Assembly: GCA_026874595.1 (NCBI GenBank)
Contig: CM049311.1
Span: 39,266,676-39,330,675, forward strand
DNA length: 64,000 nt
Direction of reading: 5' to 3'
Source of the DNA: Sipunculus nudus
Lineage: Eukaryota > Annelida > Sipuncula > Golfingiida > Sipunculidae
Shown: positions 38,801 to 51,900 of the stretch, piece by piece
Position numbering within the stretch: position 1 is the stretch's first letter
Layout of the letters: every line of letters starts with the position of its first letter
Translations under genes and position numbers: made by a program
The notes under the pieces: generated by a model
Told to the model about the DNA's origin: nothing
What the model saw: only the letters and a program-made list of their open reading frames with translations
Database searches by the model: none

Positions 38801-41800
38801 CACTTGTGTGCAGGGCCATCATTATTCATTTCAGTGCTATGAATGTAATAACAGTGATAATAACTGTATCATTATTTGCCAATGGCAGCAGAGTGACCTC
38901 TGACCCAAGATGCTCAGCTCAGTGTGGTGTAGAATAATACTGTACATACCCAATTTATTCCTATCAAAATTTGGTAGCTTCATTAATTTTGATATCTGAA
39001 TTAGTCACTGGAGGTCATAGTATTTAGTTTGTCTGGTACTAAGTATGTCTAGAGAACATTGTAATAGAAACTTGTGTCACCTGGAGTTAAAAAATGTGCC
39101 ATCACATGGATGGACATACAGAGATACAAACAATGGACAGAGAATGGTCATTGCATCTTTAAAATTAATTTCACTTACACTGATTTCAGAAAAATCCATA
39201 TTTTGCAATTTAAACTTTTACAATATTTCAGATAACCGATAATGTAGATGAGATGTTAGTTGATGACGGTTTATAGTAGGAAGTTGATCTGTGTAGGTTG
39301 TTGTCTTATTCCTGAAGGTGTTATTTTCACAACAATTTCCTTTCACAAATTAAGCAAATTTGACACTCTCGCAAGCTAAAAGCTGACGACAGTAATTGAT
39401 TGTGTATAAAGATATTGCCTCTGTACCTGTTCTGATGGCAGTATCCTCAGACGTGTCACAGTAATTGTTTGTTTTTAATGATATTGCCTCTTTACCTGTT
39501 CTGGTCAAGCAGATATAATCCAAATCTCATTATATTATCATATAACATATTTGGTAATGAAAAAAAATATATAAATATAGATTTTACTTAACATGAGCCA
39601 AATTCCTGGAGGAATTCCATTTTTTCTATATATTTTTCCACTAAAAACTTGAGGTTGTGTGATTTGTTCAAAAACTATTGGCACATCTATGAGCACTGTC
39701 AACTTGGTAGTGACGTCAAACACTGGGAAATCCCCTGTGACTAAAAATTCCAGATCTTAGTTAAAGCACAGTATTTCTGCCGCCGGCAGTCCCAAATTTT
39801 CAGCAGGGAATAAAAACAACATGCATTACTAGATCTGAGTTGTTGATAAAATCTAGTCCATGATGTCACATGTGTACCAACCAGTCAAATCAGGGCAAAG
39901 TCTGGGATCTGGATGAAATCCTCCATTCACACAACAAATGCACACGGCATGTGGAATAGGTTTACATAACCTTCTGATGGCAGTATCCTCAGACATGTTG
40001 AATTTGATCTTCAGGTACTACTGGGTTGATGAGAACCTCTACATCAGGGCTGTCAATGCTGAGTTCCCCTATGGCTACGAGTACCTGGGAAACAGTGGTC
40101 GCCTCGTTATCACACCTCTCACTGACAGGTAGGTTCATTCACTGCATCTTCACTAATTAAGACTGGTGGATGCAAGGTAAATAATAATTGTTGTAACATG
40201 ACCTGTCTTAGTTACTAATGTAACAGATCTTCATATGGTGTACATTTAATTGAATATTTTACATAATTTAATATTAAACTGCTATATTTGCGAAGAGAAA
40301 AAAAACGCAACCATCAAATTAAGGTAATACCCCTGGCAAAAATCCCTTTGTTAAAAATTAATCTGAAAGCTGTTTCAGATGTATATTATACCCCATAAAG
40401 TATACAGCATTTAAACCTGATACAGATTTCTTTCTGATGGTATATGAATTTATGAGATTCACATCCGTTTTCCTGGATTTACAGATGTTACCTGACTCTG
40501 ACTGGAGCTCTTCACTTGAAGTTTGGTGGGGCACCTGCTGGACCTGCTGGTACAGGGAAAACTGAAACCACCAAGGTACACCCAGCATGAAACAGCTTAT
40601 ATAACAATTCTCTGTAATTCTTAATGTAGAAATAGAGCTAATGCAGGTCTGGACAGATGATATATTTTTAGCTCAGTGAGCTTATGTCATGGCGATGCTA
40701 ACTTTTCAAAATCACGAAAAAATACTTCTTTTGCTTTATTTCTTGACCAGTTTCATTTTGTTTGTTTTACCTAATAGGACTAGATGTCGGCTTTAAAATC
40801 TCAACACAAAGTTTTGAAACTTACTTTATCAAAGTCACAAAAAATGCTTCTTATCCCATATTTCTATAATTGTGAGTCTGCTTGTTTTATCTGAATGGAC
40901 TTGGAGCTCATCTCCTAAACTTTTACACCAAATTTTGAACCTGCAGGTTGGGCTTCTTGAGATACCAACTTTCAGAGATGAAAAGTTCATTCCATGCACT
41001 TTGTGAATATTGCATTATTTTATGTTTTGGGGGTGTCTGGTGAGCACTACACCATGGAGGTTCTGGTTGTAACCCATTTGTCTGTGGGTTATGCAAATGG
41101 CAGATTGAGATTAAACATTAAGTTTACTTTGCAAAACCCTTAAAAAGTGAGTGTTAAGCCATTAAGGATATTGGCTAACAGGATTGTGCACTTTTGTCAT
41201 TTTATCAGCTGATCTTTGGTTTCGAAGCTGAATGCATTTGTAAGAAATATCACAAAAACTTGTATGAAATTTAAATTGAACATTATCACTACTAACATCT
41301 GACATTTTTTGTTTCAGGATTTGGCCAAGGCTATGGCTGTCCAGTGTGTTGTGTTTAACTGTTCTGACCAGTTGGATTTTATGGCTATGGGCAAGTTCTT
41401 CAAAGGTCTTGCCAGGTATGTCTTTCATTTGTATTATGCTTAATGATAATGTTATCATTTAAGATAGGCCAGTTATTATGAATTATAAAATTATTTGATT
41501 TAGCTTGGAGGGCAGATTTCATCAGACTTCTTTTTTTTTTCTAAAGGCTTTCCAGCATTTCTTCCCCAGATTATTATTACAGTTTTGCAGTTAATCTGGA
41601 TGGACCCATATTCAAAGTTAAGTTATATCTTTAAAAAATTAAAGTAATGTATATAATTCCTTTTTTTGTAATTTATTTCTTCATTTAATCAGTTTCCAGA
41701 ATTACAGATTTCAGTAGTTAACTATACTTATTACATCATAATTTTATTTGTTTTTAAAAACTATATGAAAGAATAATCCGAAACAAAAACTTTCCAAGCA

Positions 41801-42883
41801 TGTCATTTATGGTGTACCCCTCTCCGCACAGTGCGGGGTCTTGGTGCTGTCTTGATGAGTTTAATCGCATAGACATAGAGGTTTTGTCTGTGGTGGCCCA
41901 GCAAATCACAGTCATTCAAAGAGCCAGCCAGATGCAGGTAACGCACAGCCGCATGCTGATGGCAGGAAAACTGATGCATCAAATGCTTACTGAACACATC
42001 GCCTGTCTGGTTGTATAAACCTGTACTGGCCAGACGTTATAAATACAGCACCTTATCTTACTTGGTGTTATGTTGGAAATAAATGTACCCCTCAGACTGC
42101 ACACCCTCCAAAACATGTACCTCAACATTATCAAGTATACTTACACTTGGATATGGCTGGTGGCTGTCGCAGTGATTGCTATTTGAGCATACCACACACA
42201 AATCAGGTTGAGACATGACCTTTGGAATCAGAACATTATAAATGACAAATGCTTATGACTAGTGACCCCTGTGCTGGTAACATAAAAGGACATGATGAAC
42301 AATTATAACATAAAATGTTGTATCCATCCAAGGATATGATGGGACCAAGGATTACATCTATGGCACTAGATGTGTCAATATATAAGACAAAACCTTGTGA
42401 AATGGGCTTTTGAGCTGGAACTGTTAACGTGTGGGTTTTTCCCCATTTTGGAAGTCTTCCACACTGAGATCACTGTTAAATTTCCCTCTGTAAGTATATG
42501 CCATCTTAACCAGGAATAAATAAACTAGTCATGACTGACTGGCAAATGTAGAACAGTCTACTTAGAGCAAGCCTGATATGGCTTCCTTGGATTCATGTTT
42601 ACCAAGGCAGTGAGAGAAACAAGAACAGACTCATATTGACCAAGGTGTAAAGATGTTGATACTGTCATTGTTGGTGATATCAGACTATTTAGTCTCATGC
42701 TTGACCCTTCTACAATGGAGCATTTTCACTGTCAGCATAGATATATTGGTTGGACAGGACTTTAATTGGCACCTGCTTTATCTGCAGTCACCAGGCTGAG
42801 TAATACTTGTACCTACAATGAATTCATAAGCTTAAAGCCAGCTAAATTCACAAAGCATATACACAGGACCAAGCACTGTATTC

Positions 42884-42914
<31 letters not shown>

Positions 42915-45900
42915 CACAGGCTAGCAATTATTGCTTAAAACAGACTAAGCAGCATAGACTTTGTCCACTTTCAATTTCTAAGTATGAACTGACATACATT
43001 AGGATATATCCCTGACCTCAGTTGCACTAGCACACATAATACCGACCCTGGTGCCCCTCCTCCCATGCATTTGTACACACAATGTTCAGCCTCAGTGTAT
43101 GTGTCTCTACCTATATATATATACACACACCTGTAGGTATTTGACCCTGGTCCCACTCTTACAGCTGGTGCTGATTCTGTATTTTTTAATCATTGTTTTA
43201 TATGTCACAACGCTGCCCACCCATGTCGCTATTGTCAAATCTTCCCAACTTTTCACTGCAGCCTTTGATGGAGTTTTAATGGATATCATACCTGTTTGGT
43301 AATATACATTTATGGTTATTTATGTAGGAATATGGGTATTCAATTTTTTCATTTTTTGCTTTTAAGAAGAATGTAAAATTATCAACCACAGAATCTCTTA
43401 GTGGTATTTTTATATTAAAAATATAATTGAGTGGATGTAAAGCATTGTCATGAAAAGGTGATTTCTCTATTTTGATGAACAATGTTTCTTATTTTTTTTT
43501 CCCACTATTTACCTCAAATGTTTCTGTGTAAGCTGAAATCAGCTGCTCAACCACTTGTTGATCACCCATTTCTAATAAAATCCATTTGTCTGTTAGCCAA
43601 AGTACACGGACAATCTCCAAGTCTCTCTTAAATACCCCAAATTATAATTAATTAACATGACCACTAACAGTAGAAGCCCACTTGCAGTGCGGGAGCGTGG
43701 GCTTGTTTCGACGAATTCAACCGCATCGACCTTGAGGTGCTTTCTGTGATTGCGCAGCAAATCACAACGATACAGAAAGCACAGCAGCTGAAGGTAACCT
43801 GCTCGTAAAGACCCTTGCTGACAACTTTACCTTGTACAGAGCCTTGTCAGACTTCTCTAGGGGCCCAGCATGATACCCCTGTCTTTCAGAGTCAGCCTCA
43901 CCATCCTGATGATCAAAAAAGTTTTTCTGTTCTGTATGGTCAGAGATTTTATATATTTTATGGATAATCATCTTGTAAATGACACTATTTGGCTAAATGA
44001 AGACTAGTTTAATCAGTTTGGTGTTGTGAAAGTCTTGTGTTAGGGAGCACAAGAGTCCTTACTTTCCCAGGAAGAAAAACAAAGTTTGAAAATTAAATTG
44101 GTTCATATAGTAACTTGGGCAAACTTTCCTTTGTCATAAGAGCTCAAACCTTAAATAAAGTTTGCTTCAAGTCATATTCAGATGATTATTGGATATAAAT
44201 GTAATCTAGTTTTGGCACAATTATTAAACATATTGGTGTAGGCCTATTTAGTTTTGTGAGATGTAATTCAATTCAGACTTAACACAAACATGGTGAAAAA
44301 AATTTTTGATCAAAGGATGTGTGATAAATAGCTTTGTGGATGCTTCTTTTTTTCAAGGCAATACACATCTGACTGTAAACCTTTTTGTTTACAGTCAAGT
44401 GTATTCCATTTTTGACAGATGAGATCCTACTGATCTCCTTTTTTCATCAGATAGTGATATTATATTTAGCATGTTTAGGTAGCTGCACAAGAAATACCAC
44501 ATGTACAGTAGCATTTAACATAAAAAAGGCATGGCACTTAATAAATCAAAGGAGATAACTCAAAATTTCTCTGTGTATGAATTTTTTCCCATAGCGTATA
44601 AACTTTTTAGATACTAATATAATACTATTTTATAGTTTTGCATATTTTAGGCCAGTTTAATATGGTCAGCAGTGATCTATGACCTTTGTGTGGTCACAAG
44701 AGCATTGATTAACACCTGCTGGTGCATGATAAAGAATATTAAATACTCATGGCTATAATAGCTCAACAAGCAGTGTGTTTGATTTAAAAGCAATCTGGTA
44801 TGAAAACTTGTGTTGTTTACATACATTCAACCCTGGAATATTGTTGCAGTGATTGCGTGCATCCTTCATTTCAGATACTTTCTGACTGATATTTGGCTGC
44901 ACTTAATACCCACCATCCATCATAAATATCAGCTCTGCTATACCTTTATTGTGTAAACCTGTGTTGTTTACATACATTCAACCCTGGAATATTGTTGCAG
45001 TGATTGCGTGCATCCTTCATCTCAGTCATCTTTCTGACTGATATCTGGCTGCACTTAATACCCACCATCCATCATAAATATCAGCTCTGCTATACCTTTA
45101 TTGCAGGTATGTAGGAGCTAGGATTTATGTTTGATCAAGACGGAACTCTGTAATGCAGAAAAAAGTAACCTGCAACCATACCTGGATCAAAACCAAGCTT
45201 AAATGCAAAGTTAGAATAAGAAAAAATCATAACCTTCTGATCTTCTACTTGTAAAAGTATTAACTTTCTGATCTTTAGGATGGATTCATAACAAGTCTAC
45301 CAGTAAAAATGTCAACCTTCTGATCATCTACTTGTAAAAGTATTAACTTTCTAATCTTGAATCATATTTTCCTGTTTCCTCAAATCCTCATTTAGGGCAT
45401 ACATTGTATGCGGTCTGATACACTACAAGAATTCTCATCTACTGTCTTCTGCTACTGCATGTTGTACATACTCTGCTAGTTCATTTTACATGAATGATGG
45501 ACGCTTTTATTCCAGTGCGGGCGCATGGGCATGTTTTGATGAGTTCAACCGTATAGATATAGAGGTTCTGTCAGTGGTAGCACAACAGATTGCTACAATT
45601 CAAAAAGCTCAAGAAGGGAGGGTGAGGCGTCAGGGCACTTTTATTTCTGTGACACCCTATTTGGTGTAGTAGACTATACTGACCTACTGACCGTCTGTCA
45701 TTGATTCCATTACTGGTTTGATGCACTTGTGTGGTGATGCAAATTTTATAATAAATTTGAATTTTTTGTGGAATGGTTTGATTGCATTTTAGCGTGGTTT
45801 GCATTAACTTGATCACAATAAGGTCACAGAGAGCAAAGCATGTTTAGCACTCTCCTCTAGTTATAGTTATTTTTGCCTACTAACATTTTATACTAGGTTT

Positions 45901-48900
45901 TTTAACTTTATTTCTTTTTTCAGAATTTACAACTGAAATATATAGAAATATATTTCTTTTTTCTTCTGCTAGTATTGAGTTGATCTTTTTATCATCATGG
46001 ATTCTTTTTCCACTGCCAATCCATGTAAATTTTGTTCATATTTTTTTTGCTTATATTCAAATATTGCTAATAGTTTTATAAATCTTATGCATGACACATT
46101 AAAATAATTCACATTTTTTTCTGACTTGCCTCATGCTTTTACTAAAATCCTGTAGATCATTCTTTAGAAATAGATGCTTGGCTAAATGTGCTTTCTAAGA
46201 AAAAATACAAATGTTTACAAGATGGCTAAGCACCATTGCAGATAATTGCTTTGCCTTTCAGTCCAATATCTTTGGATGTAGTCAGTCCATTACAATACAG
46301 TTGTATAATACTATCACACATTTTAGAATGTGGGTTTCCAAAATAGCAGGAAATGTGGAAATGAGTATAGTATTTTTTAATACTAAGAAACAGTCCTTGT
46401 AGTGAGAGTTAGTATCATGAATAGAAACATTTGGTCTTACACACAGGTCAGTATTCATAGCCCTAGTATCAGAAAATTCAAGTCATCTAAAAACTTCAAA
46501 TTCATTGTGCAGGTCACAAGTGGTCCCCTGGTATGCCATTTGTGGATACTGCTGTTCAGCGAAAGACAAGTTAGCCATAGACAAATATGATGGTATAGTC
46601 AACTGAAGTTCCTTCAGTCCGAGACTTTACTTGCATTAAAGGCATGATCAAAGAGGTCAGGTCACACTTCAGTATAGCTTTACTAGTCAGAGGTCAAACA
46701 GGCCTGATCAACCTTGAACAGAACTTGTTAGTCCTTTGTCATACTGGCCTTATTAGCCTTGTTAGTCTAAGATCCTTCTGGCCTGATTAGACTTGAACAA
46801 AGCCTTGTAAGTCTAAGATCCTTCTGGCTAGACTGGTACCCCGCTCTATTATGGCACCGCTGCTCTAGGCCAATCATAGTGACGGGCGTACAATGCCATT
46901 TTCAGTACTCCCGGCAGACTAGTTCCAACTCAAGTATGTATTATATATGATAAAAAAAAGCATTTCATTTGCTCAGAGAAGTTGCCAAAAGTTGGCTGTA
47001 CAATTCGTGTGACATTTAAGATTAGATTAATAGATATTGATAATAACCCAATGCCACGTACAGTGGAATATCAGTTATTCAGTATATCATATCATATATA
47101 CATCCATCAGTCAATTTTGTGCAACAACTCATTTTTCAATATTATGAAACTATAAATAACTAAAGAAGCAATTTTATCAGAAATCTTCACAGATAACGAG
47201 CCAGGATCACGTTAACGCCCATGCCAATCGGTATGAGCGTGTAGACTGGAGTTGGAACCAGTCTACAGGTAAGTCATGAGTTGCAACTGGGAGTACTTAA
47301 GATGACGTTGTACGCCTGTCTCTATGCTTACCTGAGGGCCATAATAGAGCAGAGTACCAGTCTACCTTCTGGCCTGATTAGACTTCAACATAGCCTTGTT
47401 AGTCTAAGATCCTTCTGGCCTGATTAGACTTCAACATAGCCTTGTTAGTCTAAGATCCTTCTGGCCTGATTAGACTTTAACAAAGCCATGTTAGTCTAAG
47501 ATCCTTCTGGCCTGATTAGACTTGAACATAGTCTTGTTAGTCTAAGATCCTTCTGGCCTGATTAGACTTCAACATAGCCTTGTTAGTCTAAGATCCTTCT
47601 GGCCTGATTAGACTTCAACATAGCCTTGTTAGTCTAAGATCCTTCTGGCCTGATTAGACTTCAACATAGCCTTGTTAGTCTAAGATCCTTCTGGCCTGAT
47701 TAGACTTCAACATAGTCTTGTTAGTCTAAGATCGTTCTGGCCTGATTAGACTTCAACATAGCCTTGTTAGTCTAAGATCCTTCTGGCCTGATTAGACTTG
47801 AACATAGTCTTGTTAGTCTAAGATCCTTCTGGCCTGATTAGACTTCAACATAGCCTTGTTAGTCTAAGATCCTTCTGGCCTGATTAGACTTCAACATAGC
47901 CTTGTTAGTCTAAGATCCTTCTGGCCTGATTAGACTTCAACATAGCCTTGTTAGTCTAAGATCCTTCTGGCCTGATTAGACTTTAACAAAGCCTTGTTAG
48001 TCTAAGATCCTTCTGGCCTGATTAGACTTCAACATAGCCTTGTTAGTCTAAGATCCTTCTGGCCTGATTAGACTTCAACATAGCCTTGTTAGTCTAAGAT
48101 CCTTCTGGCCTGATTAGACTTCAACATAGCCTTGTTAGTCTAAGATCCTTCTGGCCTGATTAGACTTCAACATAGCCTTGTTAGTCTAAGATCCTTCTGG
48201 CCTGATTAGACTTGAACATAGTCTTGTTAGTCTAAGATCGTTCTGGCCTGATTAGACTTCAACATAGCCTTGTTAGTCTAAGATCGTTCTGGCCTGATTA
48301 GACTTCAACATAGTCTTGTTAGTCTAAGATCCTTCTGGCCTGATTAGACTTCAACATAGCTTGTTATATTATCTTGAACATATTTATTTCTTGTCAGTGA
48401 GGCTGTTTGGTTGTTGCTAACAAACCCTATCTGCATAACAAAAGGTTGTCAGTGACAAAATATATTATGCATGGAACAAACTGTTGACCATGGGGAAAAT
48501 ATGATTAAATTAAACTCAAGTGGTCATTAACTTTATATATGACACTGACATCATTATATTTATTGCAAACATAGATAAAACTTGAAAGAGGCAGTGTATA
48601 AACCTATATATTAAGTATAAAATGTGATGTGAAATCTGTTTCTCGTTAGCAGAATATTAATTGACATTGTTGAATCTTATTTAATATGATGTTACTTGTG
48701 ATTATGAATTCATTAGTAAATCAATGAAGAGTTTACAAATTGGGGGTTGATATCCTGTAGGTACTAATCTTATTGTAGTTTGTCAGTGTAGTTTTTTTTC
48801 ACAGATTAATACTGTAACCAGGGGTTTCAGAACAAAATCAGACCCAAGTTTTAAAAAGCCTAAAAGTAGCATTTCTATTAAATAAGATGTATCATTATTG

Positions 48901-51900
48901 AACTGAACAGTTAGTTGATTTGAGTTTAAAAAAAGGTTTCAATTCAGATTTAACATTTACACAGTATTTACTGTTCAAAGTTTGTAATCTGTCATTATAA
49001 AAAAAGTCTATTGTATTATTATATGTATACTGTGGTTGGCTTGTTTTTTGCAAGGTTTTCAAATTTGTGATATTCACGAAAGGGAAATCATCACAGAAAA
49101 AACAAACCTTCGTGAATAAGACACCTCATCTTTACCCAGGCAAACTGTCATTTAGAAATCTAGCCTCATCAACTTACATGTATATTTTCAAGGTGGTGTC
49201 ACTTGTATGTTAAAAATTGAAAAGCAACATTTGACATAAATGTAATGTGACAAAGATTGACGATCAATGATTGACATTACAAAAATAATCAGATCATCCA
49301 TATTATATGCCCTTAAAAGACAATTAATTGTCCTCTTTCTTGTGGGTTCCATTAAAAGTGATTGAGTTGCATATTGAATATTGTGTGAGTTACTGCATGG
49401 TAAGATTGCAAAAACGGAACCCTCGTGAAACAATGAAAAAATAAAAATTGCAAAAATTTGCCCTCGTGAATATGAAGCCAACCACAGTATGTTCCCTGAG
49501 TTACAGTATTAAACTGATCTGCTGTGTGTACATAAGCACCGTTGTAATATAGCCCTGAGCACTGCTTTTACCCCGATCCTCAGCTCTGGAGCTTGGGCAT
49601 GCTTTGACGAGTTCAACCGTATAGATATTGAAGTGTTGTCGGTGGTGGCCATGCAGATTATGACCATACATAAAGCACAACTTGACAAGGTACATCCTGT
49701 ACTGGGATGGATTGTTCATGTTGCATTCATTTGACAGGTTCACTTGTCAGTTAAATGTTGTTCCTGTTGAAACTGATGCTTCTGTTTGAATATAGCACAA
49801 TATTACAAAAGAGTCATTCACAGGCAGATTAAGTTACAGTTGGATAACTATACAATTTTGAAGATGCTGTTTTTACTCCTGATGTTTTTTTTGTAATGTA
49901 TTCATGATATATTCTCGTAGAAGTCATCAGATTTTCTCTCTCTAGTAATTAATTAAGGAAATTTGTCTATTCTAATTAACCATATGTGATTTTTTTTACA
50001 TCAGCTTTTTGCTCATTTATGATATTTATCTGTTAAGTATTTTTTAATATGTTTTTTAATATCTACATTTCAAGAGTGTCAGACATAGATTATAAAATGT
50101 CACATGGATAAGTATATAGATAATTTGTTTAAAATATGTTGTCTATTATAATGTCACTTTACCATGTCTTTTTATATAAAGCTTTAAATGACTTGGTCAT
50201 TGAATCTTTTTTAATGATGATTTTTTATAAAAAAATTTTCATCTATGAAATAAGTTCTGTAACATTTATTTGATTTTAAATGACAGGAAAGCACTAAGAA
50301 AACATTTCTGAAAAGCTAATTTAAGTAACACAGTTTGAAGTGTTGTTTAACATGAAGTTATCCTTCCTATACAGGACTGCTGAATATTAAATAAGCTTTT
50401 CAATTTAAATTGTTTTAGTTCAACACCAGTTTTAGATTGTTAGATCTGAACATAATTAATATCAGCTGAGTACTACATGAGCATCATGTGAGTTCTGACT
50501 GATGAGTACTATATTTAACCTCAGATGGAGCGGTTCATGTTTGAGGGTGTAGAACTGGTACTCAAACCTTCCTGCGCTGTCTTCATCACCATGAACCCGG
50601 GTTATGCTGGCCGTACTGAGCTGCCAGATAACCTCAAGGTCAGTTTATACAGTTTAATTATTTTATGATTTTGTTAGAATTAATTCTTGAATAAAATTTT
50701 TCAGTCTTCCGGGAGAGAACCAATCTTGCTGGTTACAGGAAAAGTTCATGCTCATTAAAGGTGCCTCTTCGGATTCCAGGCATGTTAAATAAATATGAAA
50801 TAGTGTTTTTCCTAAAATGTTATGGTATCTGCCAGTATTTTTGTTCAAAAACCATTTGCAAACATCTGTACACAAGTGGAAATAAGCTTGCATTAGGCAC
50901 AGTCAGTGGTAAAACATAAACATTGAGCAAATGCCACCTGTTGGCGGTATAGCATTGCAATTTCACAAATCAAGATTTTTCATACTTCCTTCCAGTGTTT
51001 CTTATTTTTTGTTTGGCTATGCAGTCTTATTATGAGAAACACGTGTGGACAATGTTTACTAACACTCAGAACCATAACAATATATTTAACAGGTGAATGT
51101 GGCAAGATGGTTTTGCTGGAAACTTTTGTATTCAGCCAGATTTAACTTATAACAAAAGATAATACACATACTACTGCAAATGATTGTCTTTTTGAACATG
51201 AATGATTGGTTATTTCATGAAAATAAAATAATTATAAAGCCAGTTTAGAAAAAGGTTTATCCTGTATCTTCAGATCCAAAAATATGCAAATGAGAAGTTA
51301 TTTGGTATTTTTCCTTTTATTCTGAAAATAAATAATCCTTTTATAATTTGGTGCGTGGAATATTATGTATATTATGGGTATAACTATATTTTGAAATAGA
51401 ATGATTTCTTTACTGAATGCCTGGACATGCTACAGAAATATGTTTTTAATAGTTCTCAATACACAGATCTATGTGTAATATATACATCAAGTTAACCTTT
51501 ATATGGTCTGTATTTGCTGAAGAACAAGTTACTCATGTATTTTTTTCTATGTTTCAGGCTCTCTTCCGACCAGTAGCCATGATGGTGCCTGACTACGCCC
51601 TGATCGCTGAGATCAGCTTGTTCTCATTTGGGTTCTCTGATGCTAAAGTTCTGGCGAAGAAGATCACCACGACATTCAAACTGAGCTCAGAACAACTCAG
51701 CTCACAGGTAGTGAATAGTTCACAAAAAATAAATCACATCTTTTGTAGTTGTCTTTATATTGTTAAATTGTACCTTTAAATGTTGTATCTCTTGCAATCA
51801 CTTTTACTATTTGTGAAGTATTCATCTTTGGACTTTGTAAATTATTATCCAAGACCATCATGACTTCAGTGTATGTTAAGTGTGAGACTTGACCTGCCAG

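Follow-up and report, generated by a model that had tools for sequence, protein, structure and literature searches.

The window (the whole stretch of 64 kb that was analysed) carries on its + strand a gene for the dynein heavy chain DNAH1, in which four exons of 106 nt each lie between two constitutive exons. Every one of the four is preceded by AG and followed by GT, is entered in phase 2 (within a split Ser codon, AG plus T or AG plus C) and left in phase 0, is free of stops in the corresponding frame and encodes the motif DEFNRID. This anatomy had been put forward in the original prediction and is exact to the base. The exons concerned and the introns between them are as follows:

40015..40128, + strand: constitutive DNAH1 exon preceding the Walker A exon; AG/GT borders, open joined frame, 90% identity to Ruditapes DNAH1 by tblastn
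40485..40575, + strand: DNAH1 exon with the Walker A motif of AAA1; AG/GT borders, open joined frame, 31 of 31 residues identical to Ruditapes DNAH1
41318..41415, + strand: constitutive exon directly upstream of the cluster, its last two bases being part of the split Ser codon; AG acceptor, GT donor, 94% identity to Ruditapes DNAH1
41832..41937, + strand: candidate alternative Walker B exon, copy 1, 35 residues, divergent type (borders, phase, open frame, comparison with related rows)
43688..43793, + strand: candidate alternative Walker B exon, copy 2, 35 residues, near consensus (borders, phase, open joined frame)
45516..45621, + strand: candidate alternative Walker B exon, copy 3, 35 residues, near consensus, with the top-scoring acceptor of the four (borders, phase, splice scores)
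49584..49689, + strand: candidate alternative Walker B exon, copy 4, 35 residues, of an M-type common to Haliotis, Ruditapes and the second Paralvinella copy (borders, phase, relatives)
50525..50638, + strand: constitutive exon directly downstream, which includes TMNPGYAGR; AG acceptor, GT donor, 82% identity to Ruditapes DNAH1
41416..50524, + strand: span of the five cluster introns of 416, 1750, 1722, 3962 and 835 nt, as given by the exon borders

Joined to the three exons before it and the one after it, copy 2 can be read without interruption from the exon preceding Walker A to ELPDNLK. Searches of both strands of the 64-kb window with tblastn and nhmmer placed the Walker B exon at four positions and found no fifth copy there, all other matches having E values of 0.17 or higher. 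Several repeats were seen in the same stretch. The intron between copies 3 and 4 contains a minisatellite (47365-48366; about 22 copies of 46-bp units) and, directly before it, an inverted repeat (46829-47364) with 27-nt arms that are 93% complementary and lie 482 nt apart, which may be a small mobile element, and the intron between copies 2 and 3 holds a two-copy tandem duplication of 152 bp (44804-45103). Upstream of the DNAH1 exons found, the + strand carries reading frames that by eye resemble reverse transcriptase (2-2069).

The assignment of the gene to DNAH1, as originally proposed, is borne out in two ways. In the AAA1 region, where DNAH1 was compared with other chains, the joined segment of 106 residues placed human DNAH1 (8j07 chain g6) and two more DNAH1 chains at the top of the PDB list with 200 bits, followed by DNAH12 with 174 bits (among the best 60 of 84 matches). 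Along the gene, tblastn with DNAH1 proteins as queries yielded 38 matches for Ruditapes DNAH1 between 2.6 and 57 kb of the window, with fourfold matching limited to the Walker B stretch. By PDB alignment the exon corresponds to residues 1626-1660 of human DNAH1, including the Walker B residues Asp1633 and Glu1634. We take DNAH1 to be an axonemal inner-arm dynein heavy chain, and the exon presumably also encodes the helix that follows the Walker B strand in dynein structures.

The reading frame gives the cluster its logic. All four joins of a single copy are open across the flanking exons, none of the 11 combinations of two to four copies is open, and the one join that skips all copies runs into a stop about nine codons into the downstream exon. 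The original prediction, that only one copy per mRNA leaves the frame open, thus stands, as does its statement that skipping, or joining two or three copies, disrupts the frame; its proviso that a join of all four would restore the frame fails in practice, because translation meets a stop within the second of the copies joined, as in all 11 multiple joins. Messages with no copy or with several would accordingly end prematurely and presumably be destroyed by nonsense-mediated decay, so that protein would come from single-copy messages alone.

The copies are old. Any two of them agree at 66-76 of the 106 nucleotides and 22-29 of the 35 residues, and their likeness ends at the exon edges, the 300-nt flanks offering matches of at most 10-13 nt. 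Across the six pairs, synonymous sites are saturated (pS 0.78-1.07) at a pN of 0.086-0.246, and in neutral simulations started from copy 2 (n=3000 at each of three nucleotide identities) no replicate reached the observed number of retained residues, and 19-26% stayed without a stop. Because of this saturation, the residues kept and the outcome of the simulations, the copies are best understood as old sequences that for most of their existence were maintained as protein, in agreement with the protein-level selection first suggested for them, although one copy may have been retired lately. Fifteen of the 35 positions vary among the copies (1, 3, 5, 7, 15, 21, 23, 26, 27, 29, 30 and 32-35).

For comparison with other animals, 267 distinct proteins with 272 exon equivalents were assembled from the best 120 of 2922, 3577 and 1105 matches, respectively. 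Every residue of copies 2 and 3 recurs among the 261 rows with DNAH1 context, and both copies resemble the usual sequence of DNAH1 and other heavy chains in the 267 proteins listed. The differences of copy 4 are rarer, with Met23 in 5 of the 261 rows, Met26 in 27, His29 in 1, Leu33 in 1 and Asp34 in 3, frequencies that are biased because the rows stem from ranked lists, two of the three drawn by similarity to M-type exons. Copy 1 departs furthest: Ser3 occurs in a single one of these rows, and Cys5, Leu7, Val27 and Ser32 occur in none. Neither Cys5 nor Leu7 was seen among the 272 exon equivalents of the 267 proteins listed, and the closest of these rows reaches at most 27/35 identity to copy 1. 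Judged by residues, copies 2 and 3 thus appear close to the family consensus and copy 4 a distinct old class, with copy 1 as the odd one.

The exon peptide was searched against the animal's own assembly (1.43 Gb, 153 contigs), where the best-scoring candidates comprised 17 matches: the four copies of the cluster, in order on a contig of 88.9 Mb, and 13 scattered ones. Each of the 17 fetched 3-kb loci contained one exon, and among the dynein loci found in this way DNAH1 is the only one with more than one such exon. Met23 is present in one of the 13 other dynein exons (L036, which we take to belong to a dynein-2-like gene). The unusual residues of copy 1 recur there in part: Ser3, Cys5 and Val27 in 4, 2 and 1 of the 13, respectively, and Arg30 likewise in other dynein genes of the genome, with Leu7 in 0/13 and Ser32 in none of the nine exons read that far. 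Two other dynein genes of the genome carry GSWCC and GAWCC before Walker B (L027:1492-1593 and L025:1504-1596), and copy 1 has GSWCC within DNAH1.

The matrices used to score splice signals were built from the gene's own constitutive sites (14 acceptors, 17 donors), which themselves scored 1.1-11.4 as acceptors and 2.2-11.5 as donors in leave-one-out mode. The donors of copies 1 to 4 score 9.0, 6.7, 5.9 and 6.7, and the corresponding acceptors score 0.2, 0.3, 7.8 and 2.9, those of copies 1 and 2 falling below all 14 constitutive ones used. In the 20 bases upstream, copies 1 and 4 have nine C each and copy 2 has nine pyrimidines. The weak acceptors of copies 1 and 2, together with the low score of copy 4, suggest a regulated choice, within the limits of so few sites. 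Docking-selector pairing was at best weakly indicated: on the single sequence used, 2, 1 and 0 of 20 shuffles reached the observed value in three layouts.

Unlike the cluster, 262 of the 267 representative animal proteins have a single Walker B exon equivalent, a count in which other isoforms of one gene are hidden, because each row represents a cluster at 90% identity. Two equivalents occur in the remaining five, and only in Paralvinella are they adjacent. The other four, Exaiptasia (P0001), Acipenser (P0002), Cervus (P0121) and Paragonimus (P0122), were rejected as cases of alternative exons, because their two matches are separated by 230-791 residues and look like repeated pieces of the gene. 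At exon position 23 the 272 rows have Gln in 264, Met in 6, Leu in 1 and His in 1. The Met rows are Haliotis rufescens P0123 ('isoform X3'), Ruditapes philippinarum P0134 ('isoform X2'), Mya arenaria ('isoform X3'), the nemertean Tubulanus, P0186 (source 'lgn', about 70% identical to mollusc DNAH1) and the second copy of Paralvinella. Of the 17 lophotrochozoan proteins compared (flatworms apart), 12 have the Gln23 exon only.

Copy 4 has a stretch of 13 residues in common with Haliotis P0123 and Ruditapes P0134 and is identical to them at 32/35 and 31/35 positions, respectively; raw identity is not decisive for membership of its class, however, because two firefly proteins without Met23 (P0126 and P0133) also reach 31/35. 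The joint state of positions 23 and 29 appears more telling. Among the 261 DNAH1-context rows Met23 is found in 5, a residue other than Gln at position 29 in 4, and both in 3 (Haliotis, Ruditapes and P0186), a coincidence with a hypergeometric probability of 1.4e-5 if kinship and biased sampling are ignored. Copy 4, with Met and His, and the second Paralvinella copy, with Met and Asn, combine the two features as well. The proteins of Haliotis, Ruditapes, Mya and Tubulanus each contain one exon equivalent, and their Met23 exons may be plain substitutions. That the records of Haliotis, Ruditapes and Mya are named as isoforms is at most an indirect sign of alternative transcripts.

The predicted protein P0003 of Paralvinella palmiformis is of a different kind. 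It contains an exon resembling copy 3 (32/35) followed by one resembling copy 4 (28/35), in the same order as in the window and with the second copy directly before the same downstream exon. The 24 residues between the two read like a translated pyrimidine tract, as would result if a gene predictor had to accommodate both exons. P0003, though itself a prediction, provides independent evidence for adjacent alternative exons in a second species. Together with the exons of copy-4 type in Haliotis and Ruditapes, it makes the copy-4 class look older than the split between annelids and molluscs.

A tree of DNAH1 (LG+G4, 29 sequences, 1771 columns outside the Walker B exon, of which Paralvinella fills 1399) groups the gene of the window with that of the annelid Paralvinella (ultrafast bootstrap 95), adjoining the nemerteans (75) and outside the mollusc clade (100). 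The bivalve host assumed at the outset is not supported by this tree, and an annelid is likely rather than proven on a sampling with one annelid and neither brachiopods nor phoronids. A scan of prokaryotic genomes returned 19 contigs with dynein heavy chains (L001-L019), four of them in one Verrucomicrobiaceae bin, which are probably eukaryotic contamination of metagenome bins and were left aside; a separate scan of viral contigs yielded none.

Taken together, we assign a probability of roughly 0.85 to the reading that DNAH1 of this lophotrochozoan, most likely an annelid, contains four mutually exclusive exons, one of which would be used per mRNA. The upstream exon (41318-41415) would be spliced to one of the four copies and this copy to the downstream exon (50525-50638), so that the chosen copy would supply the Walker B strand of AAA1. 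As the weak acceptors suggest, the choice would be regulated. Since the catalytic core is kept and the second half of the exon accounts for 10 of the 15 varying positions, the effect of a swap would likely be a tuning of the AAA1 ATPase or of its coupling to the ring rather than a loss of activity. Because the messenger is readable with exactly one copy, several tuned motors from one gene are possible.

It is conceivable, though on balance unlikely, that true alternation involves just the M-type copy 4 and one copy of consensus type (2 or 3), the others being redundant or recently retired. The consensus type and the M-type are the only ones that recur among other animals, copy 1 has no near relative among the 267 proteins listed and differs at five positions that are otherwise invariant or almost so, and the weakest acceptors belong to copies 1 and 2. 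A weak acceptor is, however, equally typical of a regulated exon, and all four copies have kept their splice sites, frame and DEFNRID despite saturation; moreover, Ser3, Cys5, Val27 and Arg30 of copy 1 are no strangers to the other dynein genes of the genome. We regard it as distinctly improbable that the main role of the extra copies is that of a brake, whereby skipping and double inclusion would create targets of nonsense-mediated decay that set the level of DNAH1 with little meaning for the protein. The early stop in every outcome tested other than single inclusion would fit such a role, yet a brake needs no conserved frame, and here protein-level selection has acted on all copies and the M-type sequence is common to different phyla. 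An assembly artefact or a recent local duplication without function, to which the repeat-rich intron between copies 3 and 4 might lend some colour, is scarcely credible in view of copies that differ at 28-38% of sites, have unrelated flanks and lie in order on the 88.9-Mb contig.

Arrays of interchangeable exons in tandem, from which one is chosen per mRNA, are familiar from Dscam-type genes, where competing RNA pairings are involved. The DNAH1 cluster resembles them in its tandem layout and, as its frame suggests, in the use of one exon per mRNA; unlike in those arrays, the frame alone makes the other outcomes unreadable. A large dynein inventory of 2016 would be a likely place for a prior account of such a case. 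Among the open-access matches listed, a mutually exclusive exon of an axonemal dynein was not found. The passages of a Pinctada paper on expression, polymorphism and a splicing tool do not contain the Walker B exon, and in a human survey dynein is mentioned in the references only (PMC5740500). The original prediction that no dynein heavy chain with such exons had been described is superseded by cytoplasmic DHC1 of Schistosoma mansoni, for which the relevant passages describe a mid-gene exon with a candidate second version of equal length and strong homology, called mutually exclusive (Pillmann et al. 2011, PMC3228551). Set beside the DNAH1 cluster by this description, it is likewise a dynein heavy chain gene with homologous exon versions of equal length; as described there, however, the S. 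mansoni gene is cytoplasmic and has two versions with codons split at both ends, whereas the present one is axonemal and has four, and the S. mansoni case rests on sequence alignment (PMC3228551).

A further parallel is offered by muscle myosin heavy chain, whose mutually exclusive clusters, in the account consulted, include the exons from P-loop to switch-1 in scallops (Kollmar and Hatje 2014, PMC3912159). The same account gives seven exon clusters for myosin heavy chain of the annelid Capitella and reports losses in some lineages (PMC3912159). Both are cytoskeletal motors with motor-domain exons that are swapped or, in DNAH1, would be; myosin, however, is an unrelated muscle motor whose clusters are backed in part by experimental and transcript evidence (PMC3912159), whereas DNAH1 is a ciliary AAA+ motor and its cluster is known from sequence. 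The kind of exon cluster is known, and the gene and the site look new. If used as proposed, the DNAH1 cluster would work as that of myosin does, in an unrelated motor.

A wider reading, to which we give somewhat less than even odds, is that splicing of the catalytic exon of DNAH1 forms a switch (at least two-way between consensus and M-type, and four-way here), kept since before the annelids and molluscs parted, by which one gene would furnish different cilia with inner-arm dyneins that are unlike in ATPase behaviour. It is an open question how cilia with distinct beats arise from a single set of dynein genes, and, if the switch is real, the cilia of the gut and the nephridia, the larval bands and sperm would be candidates for different versions of DNAH1. 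The swapped Walker B and post-Walker B segments within one heavy chain would, in addition, represent a ready-made natural experiment on AAA1.
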